Assembly: GCA_029860345.1 (NCBI GenBank)
Contig: JAOUBJ010000003.1
Coordinates: 132,709-196,708, forward strand
Origin: Candidatus Zixiibacteriota bacterium
GTDB lineage: Bacteria > Zixibacteria > MSB-5A5 > GN15 > FEB-12
Reading direction: 5' to 3'
DNA length: 64,000 nucleotides
Shown: piece by piece, positions 38,911 through 48,804 of the stretch
Layout: each line of letters starts with the position of its first letter
How positions within the stretch are numbered: the stretch's first letter is position 1
Translations under genes and position numbers: made by a program
The notes under the pieces: model-generated
What the model saw: only the letters and a program-made list of their open reading frames with translations
Told to the model about the DNA's origin: nothing
The model's database searches: none

Positions 38911-39276
38911 ATGCAAAAGCGCAAGATTCATAACGAAAAAGGTCTCTCCTTACTGGAAGTGTTGGTAGCGATGATCATCCTGAGCGTGTCGCTGCTGTTA
39001 CTTTTGAACATGGCAATGGTGGCCCTGGACGGCAACGACTGGGCCAATAACGCCACTATGGCCACGCAATTGATGCAGGAGAAACTGGAGCAGCTCAGGA
39101 ACACCGGCGATCTGGTCAACGGCAGTGACACTATAGAAGACTACGTGCGTACTTGGTCGGTCTCGACCGTTGCCAAACATCTCAGGAAGGTCGATGTCTG
39201 CATTAACTGGGAGGACCTTCGCAATTACGAAAAAGCCGACACGATGACGGCGTTCATTCAATCTGATTCGGTGTAG
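38911..39276 (+). CDS. pilV: PilV-like minor prepilin
   Basis: A 121-residue type IV pilus minor pilin. The class III signal is cut at G/L in EKGLSLLEVLVAMIIL, with Leu at +1, a Glu at +5 and a hydrophobic helix of about 20 residues. The mature part is short and ends in NYEKADTMTAFIQ. It is the first gene of a three-gene unit with PilW- and PilX-like genes spaced 11 and 15 bases apart, each with a good ribosome site. Minor pilins prime pilus assembly in the inner membrane. The exact Pil name rests on gene order and signal type. Confidence 0.82.
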   Translation: MQKRKIHNEKGLSLLEVLVAMIILSVSLLLLLNMAMVALDGNDWANNATMATQLMQEKLEQLRNTGDLVNGSDTIEDYVRTWSVSTVAKHLRKVDVCINWEDLRNYEKADTMTAFIQSDSV

Positions 39277-39287
39277 GTGGTGACAAA

Positions 39288-40112
39288 ATGAAAAATGTAA
39301 TAGACAAACTAAAGCAAGTGCGGGGGGCCAGCCTTTTGGAAGTGCTGGTCGCTTTGGCCATTACAGGTGTGGTTACGTTGGCCGTGTTCAAAGCCTATAT
39401 TACCCAACATCGACACTACATCGTGCAGGAAGATGTCACCGACATTCAGCAAAACGCCCGAGCCGCGATCGATGAACTCTCTCGACACGTGCGTATGGCC
39501 GGACACGATCTGCCGATGGGAATGGCGGCTATCGCTGCGTCCAACACCAATCCGGATACGATCACGATAACTTATCACACCGATGCCTGCGATACCTACA
39601 TTTCAGCACCAATGCCGCAGCCGTCGGCGGAGTTGAAGTGCGGTACCGATATCTCCTGCTATTGGACAGGACAGTGGGTTTACATTTATGAGCCGGCCGT
39701 GAACATCGGCGAGTGGTTTGAGATCACTCAAGTACAGGAAGCATCCATGCACCTGCAACACAACACTATGCAATTATCGCGGAAGTACGGCGCCGATTCG
39801 GAAATCCTCTCCCTGACTCAGGTGAAGTTCTATATCGACACGACCGACACCGAACATCCCAATTTGATGATTCAGTATATGGGTCAGACGCCACAGGTCT
39901 ACTCGATGAACATGACCGATCTGCAGTTTGTGTACCACATGAGAAATGGTGACACTCTCGATGCTCCGATCCTGGTCGATGATATCAGAGAGATAGCTAT
40001 CTCGGTCACCGGACGTTCCAACAGTCCCGACCCGGAAGCCCCGGATACTTCCGATGTATATAGATTCCGCACCTTCGCCACGTCGGTCTACCTGCGGAAT
40101 CTGGAATCCTAG
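39288..40112 (+). CDS. pilW: PilW-like minor prepilin
   Basis: A 274-residue prepilin with the N-terminal signal VRGASLLEVLVALAITGVVT and the PilW pattern DIQQNARAAIDELSRHVRMAGHDL (helix leading into the globular domain). The rest is beta-rich (DTITITYHTDACDTY; VYSMNMTDLQFVYHMRNGDT; IREIAISVTGRS). It acts with the neighbouring PilV- and PilX-like proteins at the tip or priming complex of a type IV pilus. GGTGG precedes the ATG. Confidence 0.85.
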   Translation: MKNVIDKLKQVRGASLLEVLVALAITGVVTLAVFKAYITQHRHYIVQEDVTDIQQNARAAIDELSRHVRMAGHDLPMGMAAIAASNTNPDTITITYHTDACDTYISAPMPQPSAELKCGTDISCYWTGQWVYIYEPAVNIGEWFEITQVQEASMHLQHNTMQLSRKYGADSEILSLTQVKFYIDTTDTEHPNLMIQYMGQTPQVYSMNMTDLQFVYHMRNGDTLDAPILVDDIREIAISVTGRSNSPDPEAPDTSDVYRFRTFATSVYLRNLES

Positions 40113-40127
40113 AATAGGTGGTTCAGT

Positions 40128-41783
40128 ATGAATAAGTTTGTACTCAAATCTGAGAGCGGTTTCGCCACCCTGATAGCTCTCTTGATGGTCGGCATGCTGA
40201 CTTTGTTGGGCATCGCCGCCCTGTCGACATCCGACGATGAAGTAAACATCGCCGGCAATGAACTTCAGGAGATGCGCGCCTTTTATGCCGCCGAGGCGGG
40301 ACTCGAAGCCGCCGGAGCAGCCTTGCGCTCCGAGTTCGACTCGACCGGAGCTCCGCCTACCAAGATGCCCGCGGCCAAACTGGAATTGAACGAATGCTAC
40401 CTGGTCTATGAAACCGTCGATGACGGTCCCATGACTCAGGAAATTCTTGCCAGGGGGACTCTCTCAGGATTGCATGCGTCGGTCAAATCGTTCACCGTAA
40501 CGGCCATGGCCGAAAGCAAGTTCGACCCCGGTCAGATAACTCTCCGGGAGTCCTTTCAGATGGCCTTGATTCCGATTTTCCAGTTCGCCGTTTTCTATAA
40601 CAACGAACTCGAATTCGCCCCCGGACCGGCCATGACCATATCCGGCCGCGTGCATACCAACAACAAAATGTACCTGCAGGCCGGCAACAATCTCACTATG
40701 GACAGTTGGGTTACCTGCGCCAAGGATATCCATCATGGCGGCACCGGCGCTGGAGCTATCGGCGCCGGAGGTGATGTCTTCATCAAGGACGTCTCCGGCA
40801 ACGATCAAAACATGCTCCGCAGCGGTGTCTGGCTGGACAGCGATCACGCCAATTGGTATGACTCTTCGGTGGCCCGCTGGGGCGGCATGGTGCGTGATCA
40901 AACCCACGGCCAGGAGCAGTTGAACGTGCCTGTGGACGATCCGGGCGGTGACCCGCACAAGCTGATCGAACCCTCAGCCGGCGGCAACAGCGACTCGTTC
41001 GAAGGTAAAGCCAGCCTCAAAATCATCGACCGTACCGCCTTTCGCTTAGTCGGCGGTATCTGGGTCGATGTAACCGCCGACATGGTGGCCAAGGGAATCA
41101 TAACGTTCAACGACGATAAGTTCTATGACACCCGCGAAGTTGAAAATGTCGACGTCATGGACCTTGATGTTGATCTGATGTACACCGAAGGATACGGTCC
41201 GGCCAACGGTGTGCTCTATGTCTCGGATGGGACTTCAGACTTCCCGGCCGTACGACTGGTGAATGGCGTCGAACTCGACGCCGCATTGACCGTGGCCAGC
41301 GAGAACCCGGTCTATACTTTCGGTGATTATAACCGGACGAACAAGAAACCGGCTGCGATCCTCGCCGATGCCATCACTTTCCTCTCCGACCAGTGGGATG
41401 ACAATAAATCCACCTGGTCACTGGCTACTCGCAACAAGCCGATGCACACGACGGTCAACTGCTCGTACATCGCCGGCAATGTCGAGACCGATGCCACCAA
41501 TTACAGCGGCGGTTTCGAGAATCTGCCCCGTTTTCTCGAAGACTGGTCCTCGCGCAACCTGAACTGGGCCGGTTCAGCCGTCAACCTTTGGAACTCGGTA
41601 CAAGCCGACGGCTCCTGGGGCAAGGCCAATGTCTACAGTGCCCCCAACCGAAGTTGGAATTACGACACCGACCTCGATGACCCGGCCAACATGCCGCCGG
41701 AGGTTCCGGTTGTGCGCATCCTTCAGCGAGTCGGCTGGAGCCAGGAATTTGTCAGCTACTACGACGCCGGGGCTGCTCATTAA
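40128..41783 (+). CDS. pilX: PilX-like pilus assembly protein with large C-terminal domain
   Basis: A 551-residue protein starting with the PilX N-terminal signature (ESGFATLIALLMVGMLTLLG; NELQEMRAFYAAEAGLEAA). PilX itself is about 200 residues; here about 400 more follow, beta-rich, with ISGRVHTNNKMYLQAGNNLT and PRFLEDWSSRNLNWAGSAVN. This enlarged form is seen in several uncultured phyla and may act as a tip adhesin. It is the last gene of the operon; a strong terminator follows. Ligand unknown. Confidence 0.82.
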   Translation: MNKFVLKSESGFATLIALLMVGMLTLLGIAALSTSDDEVNIAGNELQEMRAFYAAEAGLEAAGAALRSEFDSTGAPPTKMPAAKLELNECYLVYETVDDGPMTQEILARGTLSGLHASVKSFTVTAMAESKFDPGQITLRESFQMALIPIFQFAVFYNNELEFAPGPAMTISGRVHTNNKMYLQAGNNLTMDSWVTCAKDIHHGGTGAGAIGAGGDVFIKDVSGNDQNMLRSGVWLDSDHANWYDSSVARWGGMVRDQTHGQEQLNVPVDDPGGDPHKLIEPSAGGNSDSFEGKASLKIIDRTAFRLVGGIWVDVTADMVAKGIITFNDDKFYDTREVENVDVMDLDVDLMYTEGYGPANGVLYVSDGTSDFPAVRLVNGVELDAALTVASENPVYTFGDYNRTNKKPAAILADAITFLSDQWDDNKSTWSLATRNKPMHTTVNCSYIAGNVETDATNYSGGFENLPRFLEDWSSRNLNWAGSAVNLWNSVQADGSWGKANVYSAPNRSWNYDTDLDDPANMPPEVPVVRILQRVGWSQEFVSYYDAGAAH

Positions 41784-41857: not shown

Positions 41858-44287
41858 TTATTCAATGATCAAATCATACGGCATCCGCGCATAGATACCT
41901 TCTTCGGTCAACGGGGGCACGTTTTCCAAGGCCTTGTCCACGACATCAACGTTGCCTGAAAACAATCCGGCCACCATACCGAACAGTGAGCGCCCCGGCA
42001 GCGCAAACCAGGAGCGTCTCTCTGGAAACAGCGCAACGCGGTAATCGGATACCCGAAGTTGCGAAGCTGTGTAGTCCAACGCCTGCTTAAGCCCGCCCAT
42101 CTCGTCCACCAAACCATACTTCGCCGCTTCCCGGCCGGTCCAAACCCGACCCTGGGCCAACGCATCTATCGAATCAACCTCAAGGGTGCGGTTGTCGGCC
42201 ACCAACTTGAGAAAGTGATCGTAGAACGCCTGCATCTGCGAGAAATACTTTAGGCGCTCATCGTCGGTGAAGCCTCGCATGGTGCTGAGCATCCCGGCAT
42301 AGCGACCACGGGTATACATCTCGGTACCGAGATCGATCTTGTCGTACAGACCGCTGAAATCCGGCTTACCGCCGAAGATACCTATCGACCCGGTAATACT
42401 ACCCGGCCCGGCGTAGATACGTCGAGAATTCATGGCAATGTAGTAGCCACCGGAAGCGGCCACATTGGCCATGGAAACCACCAACGGTTTCTTGCGCGCT
42501 GCTTTTTCGGCAATATGATGGATCTCCTCGCCCGCCAGTGCGAAACCACCCGGTGAATTTATGCGCAGAACAACACCGGCTACCTTCGGGTGTTGCAGCG
42601 CTTGCGCGAATCCGAGATTCATCAGCGACGGTGTCACGCCCCGCCGCCGCTGGAACGGGTTGGGACTGCCTGATGAAGTAATCTCACCGTCGGCTACCAC
42701 CACAGCCATCACCGGAAGGGGAGGCCAGCCATCGTTGAGCAGGGTGTCGGACAGATATCTTTTGAAAGATACCTGCGGCATGGGCGACAAGATGCCATGA
42801 TGCAGATCATCATGATAGCTCAGGGCGTCGACCAGACCGTATTCGAGAGCCTGTTCGGAATCAAAAGGTCCCTGATCGATCAGGCTACGTACCGAGTCGG
42901 CCGAGAGCGAACGCCCGGCGGCAATAGTCGAGACCAACTGATCGAATAAATCGTCAAGCAACCGATTAACCTGGACTCGGTTCGCATCGGATGCTTCACT
43001 GCGAGTGAACTTCTCGGCGGCGCTCTTATGATCACCGACCTGCATAACGTCCGCCTTAATACCTATCTTGTCCAGGCTGCCGGCATAGAATGTCAACTCC
43101 GCCTTCATGCCCACCAGCCGCAAGCGATCGACCGGTGTCATCAATATGCGGTCGGCGGCTGATGCCACGTAGTACGCGATGTTACCGGCGCGTGACAGAT
43201 GGCAGGTGATGAGTTTGCCGCCTCTCTTGAACTCGATCAGGGCTGCCCAAAGCTCCTGCGCCTGAGCAAAACCGAGTGAGAGACCGCGCAGACTGATAAG
43301 CATCTCATCAATCGACGGATCTTCAGCTGCCCGGTAGATATTCGTGATGAGAACGGCAAACGGTGTGGGCTTGTGTCCGAAAAATGGTCGCGGCGGGTTT
43401 TCGGGCATACGGCCGGAAAGTCCGAGAGCAAGACGACGACCGCGCGGTCCGATTATCGAGCGCTGTCGCTTGCTGGTGCTGCCGGCGTAGACATCGCTGT
43501 TAAGGTGGTCACCACCGCTGGAATAATGTGTCTGTGAGCCCACGAAATACTCGAGCAAATTGGCTCTCAAACCGATCTGGAAATTCTTATCCGAGTCGAT
43601 CTGCCCCCGAAGGTAGAGGCCGTTGTTGGATGCCAGCTCGGCGTGGTAGACATAATCGGCATTGGGTAGCCGGGTGCCGGTGGAAAGGAACATGTCGACC
43701 GAAAAAGTGAAGCGGTGGCCGATCGGACGATAGCCTATCGAATAGCGCATCTCTGTTTCTGTCCGATTTCCCTCGGAGTTTTTGCTGCGGTTCAAGTTTT
43801 CAAAAACCGCCGCCCATCGAAGTTTATCACGTCCGCCCAGAATACCGACATTCCAGGTATGGCCTTTATGAAGCTCCGGCGGACCTTCTTTGAAATACCG
43901 ATACGACCCTCCCACGTGCGTGCCGTCTCCAAGCGTCGTGCCCAGCGCAAACAAATACTCTTTCAGGTCATCGCCGTCCGGCATGTAAACGTTGCGATAG
44001 GCCATGGCCAGGCGGTCTCGGGTCGTGACCAAGCCCCAACTGCGCGCTTGCGTATCATCGTGCAGACCGGCTATCAACTGAAGGGATGCCGCACTATACC
44101 GGGCCAGCCCGGCCGGGTTGACCCAGGCCGCCTCGGACCCAAAAACCGAAGCTGCCGGTTGGTAGTAGAATACGCTCGAAGGTATCTCCATTCTCTGGGC
44201 GAAAATCTCTCCTGAATCAATCAGAAAGACCAGACCGAACAGAAGCGTCAGAGTTTTCATGTTACAATGCACTATGGACTCCCTCAT
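41858..44287 (-). CDS. sppA: signal peptide peptidase SppA fused to an N-terminal outer-membrane barrel-like domain
   Basis: An 809-residue protein. Signal segment (about 10-30), then about 270 residues that look like a PorV/UPF0164-type barrel (SEAAWVNPAGLARYSAASLQ, MRYSIGYRPIGHRFTFSVDM), then a complete long-form SppA (about 300-800). The SppA catalytic pair is present: Lys about 421 in GDHKSAAEKF and Ser about 612 in VAASGGYYIA, preceded by RINSPGG. SppA normally degrades cleaved signal peptides from the inner membrane. The start ATG overlaps the upstream stop as ATGA; the ATG at 44260 gives a shorter signal peptide and is an alternative. A barrel on SppA is unusual. Confidence 0.85.
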   Translation of the reverse strand: MRESIVHCNMKTLTLLFGLVFLIDSGEIFAQRMEIPSSVFYYQPAASVFGSEAAWVNPAGLARYSAASLQLIAGLHDDTQARSWGLVTTRDRLAMAYRNVYMPDGDDLKEYLFALGTTLGDGTHVGGSYRYFKEGPPELHKGHTWNVGILGGRDKLRWAAVFENLNRSKNSEGNRTETEMRYSIGYRPIGHRFTFSVDMFLSTGTRLPNADYVYHAELASNNGLYLRGQIDSDKNFQIGLRANLLEYFVGSQTHYSSGGDHLNSDVYAGSTSKRQRSIIGPRGRRLALGLSGRMPENPPRPFFGHKPTPFAVLITNIYRAAEDPSIDEMLISLRGLSLGFAQAQELWAALIEFKRGGKLITCHLSRAGNIAYYVASAADRILMTPVDRLRLVGMKAELTFYAGSLDKIGIKADVMQVGDHKSAAEKFTRSEASDANRVQVNRLLDDLFDQLVSTIAAGRSLSADSVRSLIDQGPFDSEQALEYGLVDALSYHDDLHHGILSPMPQVSFKRYLSDTLLNDGWPPLPVMAVVVADGEITSSGSPNPFQRRRGVTPSLMNLGFAQALQHPKVAGVVLRINSPGGFALAGEEIHHIAEKAARKKPLVVSMANVAASGGYYIAMNSRRIYAGPGSITGSIGIFGGKPDFSGLYDKIDLGTEMYTRGRYAGMLSTMRGFTDDERLKYFSQMQAFYDHFLKLVADNRTLEVDSIDALAQGRVWTGREAAKYGLVDEMGGLKQALDYTASQLRVSDYRVALFPERRSWFALPGRSLFGMVAGLFSGNVDVVDKALENVPPLTEEGIYARMPYDLIIE

Positions 44288-45336
44288 TCACTGGCTGTGA
44301 CATAGATGTTCCCTTTGCCTCGGATGGATCCGCTTATCAAACCGCCACCATCCCCGACCACGAGATTAAGTCGGTTTTGTTCAACCAGCTCGGTCGTGAA
44401 AGCAAAGTGCTCAGCTTCGATCTTGCTGCCCCCATCCACGGTCAGCGTCAGCACCGCCGAGAACTCCTCAGGCAGCATGAGTTCAATATCTTCATAGCGA
44501 TTGCTAATCAAGAGTTGCCCCGTTCTCAGTTCGGCCAGCGAGATCAAGATCGGCCCGGAGGTGCACCGTACATAACTCTTGTCATCGCCCGGGTCCCAAT
44601 CCTCGACTTCGATTCGTCCATAGGCATTCTTAACATTCAGCCCGCCGGTAAGACCATGGATACGAATATCCCCGCCGTCGTTGCGAAGAACGGCCGGTTG
44701 GCTCAGATCGCTGATTCCCTCAGCGGTTAGAATCGAGTTTGTGGTGGAAACCGTAATCTGCCCGGATACGTCGGTGACCGTGATGCGTTGATTGGCTGTC
44801 TGGACCTCCAGGCGCTTGGACACATGAGCTATATCCATCCGTCCGAGAGAAGCGGTGTTTTCGAAAGAAACGAAGGGGCCATCGGCGTCAATATCGAATT
44901 CAGCAGCCTCGATATCTACCGCAAAACCTTCCGGAATTTGGAGGACCGCCTCCACAATACCGGACTCATCAGCTTTCCACGGGGGTGGATTGGGGGCTCG
45001 CATCTGAAGCTTAAGACCGCTCGGCGTTTTGCTCAGCACTACCGCAATCTGATCAAGATAGTCAACAGCATGAGACTTCCTGGAAGTGCGCGCTTTTTTG
45101 ATGTAGGTCAAAACCGCACTATCTTCGGTCGTGGCCAAAATCTGCAACTCCCCACGGAGGCTCGCCGCGGACTTGACCGAGAGCTGAGTACCCTTGCCGG
45201 GCATAACCGATCTCTGCAACTCCCTGGTGGCAAAAAGTCCGTTCGATTCTTCACGAATCTCCTGGGCGATAGACGTCGTCGACATCATCACCAGAAAAAC
45301 ACCTATTAGAGCAAGGGACTTCTTCATAGTAATCAT
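44284..45336 (-). CDS. exported DUF4097-like beta-helix protein
   Basis: A 350-residue exported protein with a signal peptide (1-24, ending TTSIAQ). The mature chain has repeated short strands of the DUF4097 type (LEVQTANQRITVTDVSGQIT; GGLNVKNAYGRIEVEDW; DGGDIRIHGLTGG), expected to form a right-handed beta-helix. These proteins are widespread but without known activity. Its start overlaps the stop of the RNA methyltransferase gene (ATGA), and its stop overlaps the start of the SppA fusion, so all three are coupled in translation. Confidence 0.75.
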   Translation of the reverse strand: MITMKKSLALIGVFLVMMSTTSIAQEIREESNGLFATRELQRSVMPGKGTQLSVKSAASLRGELQILATTEDSAVLTYIKKARTSRKSHAVDYLDQIAVVLSKTPSGLKLQMRAPNPPPWKADESGIVEAVLQIPEGFAVDIEAAEFDIDADGPFVSFENTASLGRMDIAHVSKRLEVQTANQRITVTDVSGQITVSTTNSILTAEGISDLSQPAVLRNDGGDIRIHGLTGGLNVKNAYGRIEVEDWDPGDDKSYVRCTSGPILISLAELRTGQLLISNRYEDIELMLPEEFSAVLTLTVDGGSKIEAEHFAFTTELVEQNRLNLVVGDGGGLISGSIRGKGNIYVTASE

Positions 45337-46127
45337 TTACCTTCAACTTGATCGTAGAATTGCTTCATCATTAAAGCCGCTGCCACAGCAACATTGAGAG
45401 ATTCCACGCTGCTCTCGTGCTTTAGCTGCCAACGGCAGTTCGCTGTATTTGCGATGGGCTCGGACAGACCCACCGCTTCGGAACCGACGGCCAGGATCAC
45501 CCTGTTTCGTTTGGCATTGACCGGTGGTCCGGCCGTGGACCTGCCATTTACGTCGGCCGCCACCAGCGTGAACTCGCCTTCTGCGGACAACTGGGCCGCT
45601 TGGGTCGCCGTCGTCCGGATCAGCTTCACACCGAATATCGTACCCGCCGAAGCTCGCACCACCTTGGGCGCAAACGGATCGGCGCAGGCACCGACCAGCA
45701 ACAGAGGATTGAACCCGAAAGCCAGGGCGCAACGTATAAGGGTGCCCAGGTTGCCGGGGTCCGAGATGCCATCGCACAATAAGACTTTACGATACCGCGG
45801 CTTCAGAAGTTCAGTCGGCGACCATTCCATCATGTCGAAAACGCCCAAAAGACCCTGTGAGGTGACACTGTCGCAGGTCGCTTTCATTTCTCGCGCCGAG
45901 GTGCTGGCAAGAGGTATACGTTTGGCACGAAACCGTCCGACCAACGCTGAAGCTCTGTCGGTCAACAACGGCTTGGCAGTAAGCAAGAGCCGGGGACCTA
46001 CTCGGTGCCGCATGGCCTCTTCCAAAAGCCGCACACCTTCAGCTACGAATCGACCATGGACACGGCGCCCTTTCACAGTGCGCAACGACTTGATTTCTTT
46101 TAGTTCCTTTTTGGTGATCGACACCAT
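45333..46127 (-). CDS. TrmH/SpoU-family RNA 2'-O-ribose methyltransferase
   Basis: A 264-residue SPOUT methyltransferase that methylates ribose 2'-OH in rRNA or tRNA using S-adenosylmethionine. The N-terminal substrate-binding domain (about 1-95) carries KGRRVHGRFVAEGVRLLEEA. The knotted catalytic domain has motif 1 DGISDPGNLGTLIRCALAFG, motif 2 ILAVGSEAVGLSEP and motif 3 SVESLNVAVAAAL. The target nucleotide is not known. AGAGGT precedes the ATG. It is first in the operon with the DUF4097 and SppA-fusion genes. Its start codon lies only 16 bases from that of the divergent patatin gene. Confidence 0.9.
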   Translation of the reverse strand: MVSITKKELKEIKSLRTVKGRRVHGRFVAEGVRLLEEAMRHRVGPRLLLTAKPLLTDRASALVGRFRAKRIPLASTSAREMKATCDSVTSQGLLGVFDMMEWSPTELLKPRYRKVLLCDGISDPGNLGTLIRCALAFGFNPLLLVGACADPFAPKVVRASAGTIFGVKLIRTTATQAAQLSAEGEFTLVAADVNGRSTAGPPVNAKRNRVILAVGSEAVGLSEPIANTANCRWQLKHESSVESLNVAVAAALMMKQFYDQVEGK

Positions 46128-46143: not shown

Positions 46144-48804
46144 ATGAAACGACTAAGACCCAATGAATCGTTCAAAGCGTCGGCTTGGCAAGTGAAAACT
46201 GTACTGACATTGTTGCTGCCGGTTATGATTGCCGTCCACTCCCCCGCCCTAGCCGGCGCTGATATAGTCATCGGCGGGCTGGACGGCCTCAGTATGTCCG
46301 GCAACGGTGAGCACCACCGGGTCCTGTTGGCTCTGTCCGGGGGTGGCGCCCGTGGCATTGCCTCGATAGGCGTTCTCAAAGCATTCCATGAAAAGGGAAT
46401 CGAGGTCGAAGCGATCACCGGCACCTCGATCGGCGGGATCATCGGCGGCCTTTATGCCTGCGGCTATACTCCCGACGAGTTGACCAGCCTGGTCAACAAT
46501 CTTGACCTGACCGGTCTCTTCTCCAACAAGCCGGCCAGGCGAACCATGTTTCTGACTCAACGCCAGGAGCGGGGTCGACATCTGTTTTCGATCCGCTTCG
46601 ATGGTTTCATGCCGGTGGTGCCTCGCGCCCTGACGGCCGGGCAGAAACTCACCTCTATTCTCACAACCTGGACAACACGGGCCAATTATCATGCCGGCGG
46701 CAACTTTGACAACCTGGCTATCCCTTTCAAAACTATCAGCACCGACATTGTCTCAGGACAGGAGGTGGTGCTGGACAAAGGTTCCCTGACCGATGCCATG
46801 CGCGCCACCATGGGCTTCCCGCTGGCTTTCACGCCGCTTGACAAAGGCGAACGCCTGCTCATGGACGGCGGTATGGTCACGCCCATTCCGGTCCAACTGG
46901 TAAAAAGCATGAGCGACTCGATCGGCTTCACCGTTGCCGTAAACACTGTCAGCCCGCTAATGCCGAAAGAGGAACTGTCGACACCGGTTGACATCGCCAA
47001 CCAGGTAACCTCCATAATGACCGCCGACAAACTCAAAGAGCAGTTAGACAAGGCCGACTATGCCATCAAACCGCCCTTGAACGGCATCAGCATGTCCGAA
47101 TTCAAAGCAAAAGAAAGTTTGATCGAGATCGGCTATCAAGCCGGGCTAACGGCCGCCGACAGCATCATCGACCTGTTGCACCAACGATCAGACAGTTCCG
47201 AATTCACCATTGCCGCCATGAAATTCCCCGGTTGTGCCGCCACTTATGCCGATGCTATCGAAAAACGACTGCTCAATCGCCACTTAAGCAAGGCCAGGCT
47301 GGTAGCCGACCTTAAAGCTCTGTGCATCGACCTGAAACTGTTTCGGCTGGAAGCGGACCTTGATCTGGTCGATGACACCAGCGTTCATGACCGGCGGCTA
47401 AGTCTGGCTATCAGCATACTGCCTCAGAATCGCTGGCCGGACGTCGAGATAGAATTCGCCGGGAATCAGATGTTCCCGGACAGCCTTCTCACCCATCTGA
47501 TAAAGAGCGACAATGACGTGATTTCGCCGTCTTCGCTCCGTCACGGTCTTGACAAGATTCTCGACCACTACAAACGGCGGGGCTACGACCTGGTGGATAT
47601 CGAAGGAACCACTCTCTCCGACTGCGGACGGCATCTGACGGTGGTCCTTGATGAAGCAATAGTGACCGGTATCGACATCGCCGGGAACCATCGTACAAGG
47701 TCCTGGCTGATCAGGTCCAACTTTTCTCTCAAAGAAGGTCGTCCTTTTTCTACCGGGCGAGCCTCTCGGGGCCTGGCCAATGTTTTTGCCTCGGATCTTT
47801 TCAATCGTGTCACGCTCGATCTGGTTCCAAGTGATACCGGCGCCCGGATCAACATCGGCGTCGAAGAAAGGCACGGGCACCAACTCAGGCTGGGTTGGCA
47901 CTGGCATGATGAGTACCAATCGGAGGAGTTCGCCGAGTTTCTGGACAACAACGTCATGGGTGCGGGCTTGCAGTACTTGCTGCACGCTCGCTACGCGCCG
48001 GATCGGCAGGTTTATGCCGCCTCGCTTAAAGCAGATCGCATACTCTCGACCTATCTGCTGGCCAAACTGAACCTACACCACAATCGACTCAATCGAAACG
48101 TCTACGACGCCCACGGTAACGTAACCGACGAAATAGACGAAAACCGAACCGGCCTGGAAGTTAAGTTCGGCCAACAAATTTCACGGCTGGGTACTCTTTC
48201 GGCCGGTCTGATTGTCCAGGAAGTCGAATACGAATTCGACACCGCGCAGGTTCGAGAGAAATTCGGGCTGCGCGCGCTTAAGTTCGAGTCGCTGGTCGAG
48301 ACATTCGACCGCCTGCCCTTTCCGGAATCAGGGAAGAAGCATCTTTTTGAGATTCAACTCTCCGGAAAATTCATTGGCGGCGAAGTTGAGTATACCAAGT
48401 TCTATTCATCGATTGAAGCATACTGGTCGCTCGGTGGACCCTTGAACTATCATCCAAAACTGGCCGTCGGTCTGTCGCGCTCGGGCTTGCCCGAGTCGGA
48501 GAAGTTCTATCTCGGCGGCATGAAGTCCTTCGCCGGATTCCGAACCGATCAACTGTCGGGCGACAAAATTATGACAATGTCTCACGAACTCAGATGCAAA
48601 CTACCGCTGAGGCTGTATCTGTCGGCGCGCTACGACATCGGCGAGGTCTACGCAAGCGCCGACGACATCAGGCTGTCCGGATTGCGGCACGGTTTCGGCG
48701 TGACCGCCGCCCTGGATTCACCGATTGGTCCGCTGGAATTCGGGTACGGCGTTGCCGATGAAGGTTTCGAGCGTTACTATGTCAATATCGGCCTCGCCTT
48801 TTAG
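46144..48804 (+). CDS. patatin-like phospholipase fused to a BamA/Omp85 barrel (PlpD-like)
   Basis: An 886-residue type Vd autotransporter-like protein. Signal peptide; patatin domain (about 58-340) with oxyanion loop GGGARG (66-71), nucleophile Ser95 in GTSIG and catalytic Asp241 in DGGMV; POTRA-like domain (about 420-560); C-terminal Omp85 barrel (about 570-886) with the lid motif region FYLGGMKSFAGFR and final strand YYVNIGLAF. Expected to hydrolyse phospholipids at or outside the outer membrane. Start is uncertain: the ATG at 46144 has GAGG only one base away and gives a long n-region, while GTG at 46192 gives a neat signal peptide (KTVLTLLLPVMIAVHSPALA). Confidence 0.88.
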   Translation: MKRLRPNESFKASAWQVKTVLTLLLPVMIAVHSPALAGADIVIGGLDGLSMSGNGEHHRVLLALSGGGARGIASIGVLKAFHEKGIEVEAITGTSIGGIIGGLYACGYTPDELTSLVNNLDLTGLFSNKPARRTMFLTQRQERGRHLFSIRFDGFMPVVPRALTAGQKLTSILTTWTTRANYHAGGNFDNLAIPFKTISTDIVSGQEVVLDKGSLTDAMRATMGFPLAFTPLDKGERLLMDGGMVTPIPVQLVKSMSDSIGFTVAVNTVSPLMPKEELSTPVDIANQVTSIMTADKLKEQLDKADYAIKPPLNGISMSEFKAKESLIEIGYQAGLTAADSIIDLLHQRSDSSEFTIAAMKFPGCAATYADAIEKRLLNRHLSKARLVADLKALCIDLKLFRLEADLDLVDDTSVHDRRLSLAISILPQNRWPDVEIEFAGNQMFPDSLLTHLIKSDNDVISPSSLRHGLDKILDHYKRRGYDLVDIEGTTLSDCGRHLTVVLDEAIVTGIDIAGNHRTRSWLIRSNFSLKEGRPFSTGRASRGLANVFASDLFNRVTLDLVPSDTGARINIGVEERHGHQLRLGWHWHDEYQSEEFAEFLDNNVMGAGLQYLLHARYAPDRQVYAASLKADRILSTYLLAKLNLHHNRLNRNVYDAHGNVTDEIDENRTGLEVKFGQQISRLGTLSAGLIVQEVEYEFDTAQVREKFGLRALKFESLVETFDRLPFPESGKKHLFEIQLSGKFIGGEVEYTKFYSSIEAYWSLGGPLNYHPKLAVGLSRSGLPESEKFYLGGMKSFAGFRTDQLSGDKIMTMSHELRCKLPLRLYLSARYDIGEVYASADDIRLSGLRHGFGVTAALDSPIGPLEFGYGVADEGFERYYVNIGLAF

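Follow-up and report, generated by a model that had tools for sequence, protein, structure and literature searches.

The stretch of Candidatus Zixiibacteriota DNA analysed here (64,000 nucleotides, hereafter the window) contains a reading frame in which the protease SppA is preceded by what looks like an outer-membrane barrel, and it raises two questions: do both halves belong to one protein, and, if so, where would the protease work? With respect to the window itself, the first is readily answered: the frame is single, with neither an internal stop nor a frame change, so no frameshift has joined two genes here, a point on which the preliminary description had asked for caution. The features of the gene, its neighbours and some related loci are collected in Table 1. 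Judged from the sequence, the first nine residues of the frame are probably unused, Met10 opening a clean signal peptide.

Table 1. Features of the barrel–SppA locus (window positions) and of related loci (locus handle before the colon)
Feature	Position	Strand	Remarks
Barrel–SppA fusion gene	41858..44287	(-)	809 aa; likely start M10 (44260) or 44287
Signal peptide MKTLTLLFGLVFLIDSGEIFAQ	44195..44260	(-)	M10–Q31, read from the sequence; putative cleavage site
N-terminal plug with NPA motif (WVNPAGLA)	44087..44194	(-)	mature residues 1–36; AlphaFold2 and alignment
14-strand FadL/PorV-type barrel (predicted)	43475..44086	(-)	mature residues 37–240; AlphaFold2 pLDDT 92.5
Ten-residue linker	43445..43474	(-)	mature 241–250; from last strand to start of 3bez match
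Complete two-domain SppA	42020..43444	(-)	mature 251–725; 3bez_C match and Pfam S49 twice
Catalytic Lys codon, K421	43025..43027	(-)	alignment with 3bez and homologues
Catalytic Ser codon, S612	42452..42454	(-)	alignment with 3bez and homologues
C-terminal tail	41861..42019	(-)	partly low confidence in model
DUF4097 (toastrack) protein	44284..45336	(-)	directly upstream, 4-base overlap with fusion ORF; conserved neighbour
SpoU-family RNA methyltransferase	45333..46127	(-)	first operon gene; conserved neighbour
Patatin–POTRA–Omp85 protein	46144..48804	(+)	divergent, outside operon; conserved neighbour in most families
Stand-alone barrel loci	L052, L054, L057, L059 (f4); L061 (G049), L063 (G048)		
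sprA, M28-like peptidase and DUF4097 genes upstream of fusion	L048:1-5637; L047:3269-9500		gene order

The two halves of the protein

Sequence profiles barely reach the N-terminal half. No convincing Pfam or NCBIfam match was found for the first ~245–270 residues of the window protein, and a sequence profile of the barrel matched no chain when compared with solved structures. Among the 64 homologous domains of our alignment (A1), TraF_2 is matched by three (best value 0.0015), Porin_4 by two (best 3.6e-4) and PorV_fam (NF033709) by one (E 0.012); none of the three profiles is matched by the window protein. From the same alignment, AlphaFold2 predicts a barrel of 14 strands behind two short plug helices, with a mean pLDDT of 92.5, a pTM of 0.83 and similar confidence across the five models. 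The top Foldseek match of this model is PorV of the type IX translocon, and in VIA-align 2 the PorV chains 8gl6_F (Z 24.2, rmsd 3.1 over 244 residues) and 6h3i_F (Z 24.1) stand above FadL, TodX, TbuX and CymD (Z about 20–23), with other porins at 17 or below. BamG, a FadL-family barrel that forms part of Bacteroidota BAM complexes (PMC12611786, PMC12578637), scores Z 19.7–21.2 (structures 9n2d, 9hjm and 9hiv).

Further likeness lies in the plug, which carries an NPA motif: Pro27 is invariant and Asn26 is present in at least 90% of the 64 sequences, and in FadL the same motif is named in the title of PDB entry 2r4o. The predicted window barrel therefore shares with PorV and FadL its 14 strands, its N-terminal plug and its NPA motif, but it is shorter (about 245 residues, as against 367–421) and has a protease at its C-terminus; likewise, no enzyme domain is described for BamG, whereas the window barrel carries SppA. 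Overall, the N-terminal half is predicted with high confidence to adopt the FadL/PorV fold, an assignment made through structure. Both the PorV-style start (AAWVNPAGLA) and the barrel-like domain of the preliminary description are thereby borne out. Elsewhere in the same genome there is a second barrel-like match (E 1.1e-5; G000:C2:254388-254669, L156) in a frame of 335 aa, which is perhaps the organism's own PorV.

The C-terminal half is more conventional. Within the last 500 residues, Pfam reports two matches to Peptidase_S49 (8.4e-72) and weaker relatives of the same fold; the NCBIfam SppA domain model scores well over its cut-off, and TIGR00705 (SppA_67K) is matched at 1e-80 with 272 bits, under its cut-off of 311. 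Lys421 and Ser612 correspond in the alignment to chain positions 184 and 384 in PDB entry 3bez, which, given an offset of 25, we take to be Lys209 and Ser409 of Escherichia coli SppA. Both residues are conserved in all 43 aligned fusions, the lysine in the first S49 domain and the serine in the second, and the earlier claim of a full SppA with its catalytic pair holds. A full-length model based on the 43 sequences (pLDDT 87.8, pTM 0.84) superposes on E. coli SppA (3bez_C) with a Z score of 36.7 and an rmsd of 2.7 over 455 residues (30% identity, mature residues 251–725); pLDDT falls below 50 for ~30 residues of the tail (mature 734–763).

The last barrel strand ends at mature residue 240 and the SppA fold begins at 251. 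In E. coli, SppA forms a tetramer in the inner membrane, to which an N-terminal transmembrane segment ties it (PMC9360617); in the fusion this anchor is absent and, since the SppA match starts right after the barrel, the barrel occupies its place. The catalytic unit itself has the same two-domain Ser–Lys arrangement as E. coli SppA (protease IV; family S49, TIGR00705). According to the models, then, the window protein is an SppA catalytic unit, rather than a standard SppA.

Location and orientation of the protease

On the basis of the fold and the signal peptide, we consider it probable that the protein is an outer-membrane-anchored SppA that would face the periplasm and degrade peptides there. 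The fusion would be exported by Sec, and the 14-strand barrel would insert in the outer membrane; because the number of strands is even and the N-terminus forms a plug, the chain would presumably emerge from strand 14 into the periplasm and, after about ten residues, enter SppA. A Ser–Lys protease, possibly a tetramer like its E. coli counterpart, would therefore be held under the outer membrane instead of at the inner membrane. The proposal of the preliminary description that an SppA-type protease is placed at the outer membrane is supported to this extent; its suggestion that surface proteins are processed is not, since the predicted topology has SppA on the other, periplasmic face of that membrane.

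The opposite orientation deserves consideration. In intimin, an N-terminal barrel is followed by a C-terminal domain, and the fusion has the same order, such that SppA might pass through the barrel and reach the cell surface in the manner of an inverse autotransporter. Proteins of the intimin type, however, have a long linker that runs through the pore, whereas the ~ten residues between the last strand and the SppA fold are too few for such a crossing, and in the predicted structure the N-terminus plugs the pore; surface exposure is, in our judgement, highly improbable.

For a periplasm-facing SppA, the most likely substrates would be peptides arriving or accumulating at the inner face of the outer membrane, namely, used signal peptides or the remnants of outer-membrane and type IX secretion traffic, a guess based on the S49 and M16 families, the latter being those of two peptidases that, in many families of Zixibacteria, are encoded in the same operon and beside which the fusion would act. 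Besides the fusion, the window's genome encodes a short SppA (L002) whose N-terminus has a hydrophobic helix; this protein would stay in the cell, and the inner membrane is, therefore, probably still served. Without sppA, Flavobacterium columnare no longer glides and forms more vesicles (PMC13236525); SppA is therefore of consequence for outer-membrane processes even in its ordinary form.

Occurrence, separated halves and a probable slippage site

Searching with a profile built on the entire fusion recovers the gene uninterrupted, and near the full model length, from about 96 of 132 Zixibacteria genomes, which represent 17 of 19 families (a tally made by eye on the profile-search list; in further genomes the fusion is cut at contig ends), so that the preliminary description's suggestion to seek the same fusion elsewhere has been amply rewarded. 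Loci L075 and L078 ('Candidatus Zixiibacteriota') hold the same gene. Recurrence in one open frame on this scale is therefore far beyond chance and, together with the conserved gene order, makes it next to impossible that a frame error or faulty assembly produced the fusion, even though relatives with separate halves, considered below, do exist. The fusion is not indispensable, because family f7 (G008 and G009; 93 and 99% complete) has a short SppA only.

Other phyla were sampled through 80 SppA loci. A contig binned as Poribacteria (L096) encodes a fusion of 814 aa, which the SppA tree places away from the fusions of Zixibacteria, and three other Poribacteria loci have ordinary SppA; about 1 kb downstream of the L096 fusion lies a gene for a PorV/PorQ-like protein (L096:6914-7861; NF033709, 1e-23, just under the cut-off). 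In the same tree, L135 (a MAG) clusters with Zixibacteria family f19. This tree, a quick one, hinted at several origins of the fusion within Zixibacteria, but these are not required, as a single clade is not rejected (p-AU 0.72). Additionally, a deltaproteobacterial candidate of 748 aa (L094) was discarded: its extra length comes from an upstream start codon, and what follows is an SppA of the usual kind, hydrophobic helix included.

In family f4 and in genomes G048 and G049, the gene at the fusion locus encodes the barrel alone (274–284 aa), in f4 with M16 genes after it, and most of these genomes have a second, divergent barrel–SppA ('type B') elsewhere. In a tree of the barrels, type B forms a separate clade and the stand-alone barrels nest within the fused ones at two places; the SppA half has thus, going by the sequences, most likely been lost twice at this locus. 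We considered the separate halves of f4 as evidence against a fusion and rejected them on account of this nesting. Because two lineages keep the barrel at the locus without SppA, anchoring is probably not its sole function.

Family f18 presents a different case. In both of its genomes, which represent two genera (G123 and G124), the frame of the barrel differs from that of SppA (L065:3924-6370 and L066:3423-5890), and a run of nine T residues occurs at the identical place (CGT TTT TTT TTG in one and GCT TTT TTT TTC in the other, in the barrel frame). Within about 20 codons of this run the barrel frame meets a stop, and past the run it is not conserved between the two species. SppA could start at the earliest 29 codons beyond the T run, and over these codons the two sequences differ 6, 4 and 20 times at codon positions 1, 2 and 3 of the SppA frame; this pattern indicates that the stretch is under selection and translated in the SppA frame, for which slippage at the T9 run is needed. 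Programmed slippage or frameshifting thus appears likely in f18. Runs of nine T residues have a length known for transcriptional slippage (PMC1088944), and a heptamer for −1 ribosomal frameshifting would match the site as well; a stimulating RNA stem was looked for downstream of the run and none was found (z 0.7 and 1.1). That the run was miscounted in both genomes is possible but unlikely. Other, isolated breaks between the halves occur in G103 and G057, and these may be errors. Relatives with separate halves, which the preliminary description would have counted against the fusion if the window held a sequencing error, do therefore exist, but they appear to represent later losses of SppA (f4, G048 and G049) or the conserved slippage site of f18, rather than to point to an error in the window.

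Gene neighbourhood and possible partners

In most families, SpoU, DUF4097 and barrel–SppA follow one another on one strand, with the patatin–Omp85 gene divergent from them. The latter protein, of the PlpD type, offers a parallel in that it also joins a hydrolase to an outer-membrane barrel; its barrel, however, is of the Omp85 family and its enzyme is an N-terminal lipase, whereas the fusion combines a barrel of another family with a protease. In many families, two M16 zinc peptidase genes lie downstream of the fusion. The family of the window, f1, is an exception, as the fusion is followed there by genes resembling those of pilins or by one for an aldehyde dehydrogenase. In the window, three consecutive genes resembling minor type IV pilins (38911-41783) stand tail to tail with the fusion gene, the last being the only one with a Pfam match (PilX_N, below its cut-off).

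The M16 peptidases also bear on the suggestion that the barrel is a channel, through which hydrophobic peptides or lipopeptides would enter from the outside or from the membrane by FadL-type lateral opening, and be passed to SppA and the M16 enzymes as food. FadL-family barrels do carry hydrophobic substrates (PMC12611786), and the operon does hold M16 peptidases; however, the conserved gene neighbourhood showed no peptide transporter, and PorV and BamG illustrate that many FadL-type barrels do not transport. We regard uptake of this kind as unlikely.

A further suggestion is compatible with an outer-membrane-anchored SppA and would refine it: the barrel may be a docking module on a larger machine, as PorV is on SprA and BamG on BamA, with SppA trimming or clearing peptides for type IX secretion or BAM. 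The nearest solved folds, namely, PorV of the T9SS translocon and the FadL-type subunits of Bacteroidota BAM (PMC12611786, PMC12578637), point in this direction, but a fold match does not show a partner. SprA, the type IX translocon, was found in 126 of the 132 genomes, the window's included, which agrees with docking; such near-universal presence means, however, that co-occurrence cannot tell whether the fusion serves SprA. In G112 and G114–G117, the fusion is preceded, at a distance of about 3 kb, by sprA, and in G115 and G116 the order is sprA, M28-like peptidase (a weak assignment), DUF4097, fusion, M16 and M16. The two genes are neighbours only in these genomes, and the adjacency is thus confined to one part of the phylum; moreover, G068 (93% complete) has the fusion and no SprA match at 1e-20, and f7 has SprA without the fusion. 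Docking is, accordingly, a possible but tentative refinement.

A broader scheme, which we put forward as doubtful, would be a phylum-wide outer-membrane machine for peptide disposal, in which the barrel docks or feeds an SppA chamber that is located beneath the outer membrane and has M16 partners, and in which the supply of barrel-only relative to barrel–SppA protein would be set by gene splitting (f4, G048 and G049) or by slippage at the T9 run (f18).

In the literature searched, the scope of which excluded most subscription journals and annotation databases, no earlier description of SppA joined to a barrel was found. Existing descriptions of SppA make it an enzyme of the inner membrane whose task is the clearance of signal peptides; if the outer-membrane-anchored form proposed here is correct, peptide clearance would also take place at the outer membrane, and the FadL-type barrel would gain a new use as the carrier of a protease. 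Moreover, as the barrel half has no Pfam or NCBIfam profile, annotation would show only 'SppA' for such proteins, and with it the wrong cell location. The barrel-only and slippage variants, finally, constitute a natural test of the role of each half.
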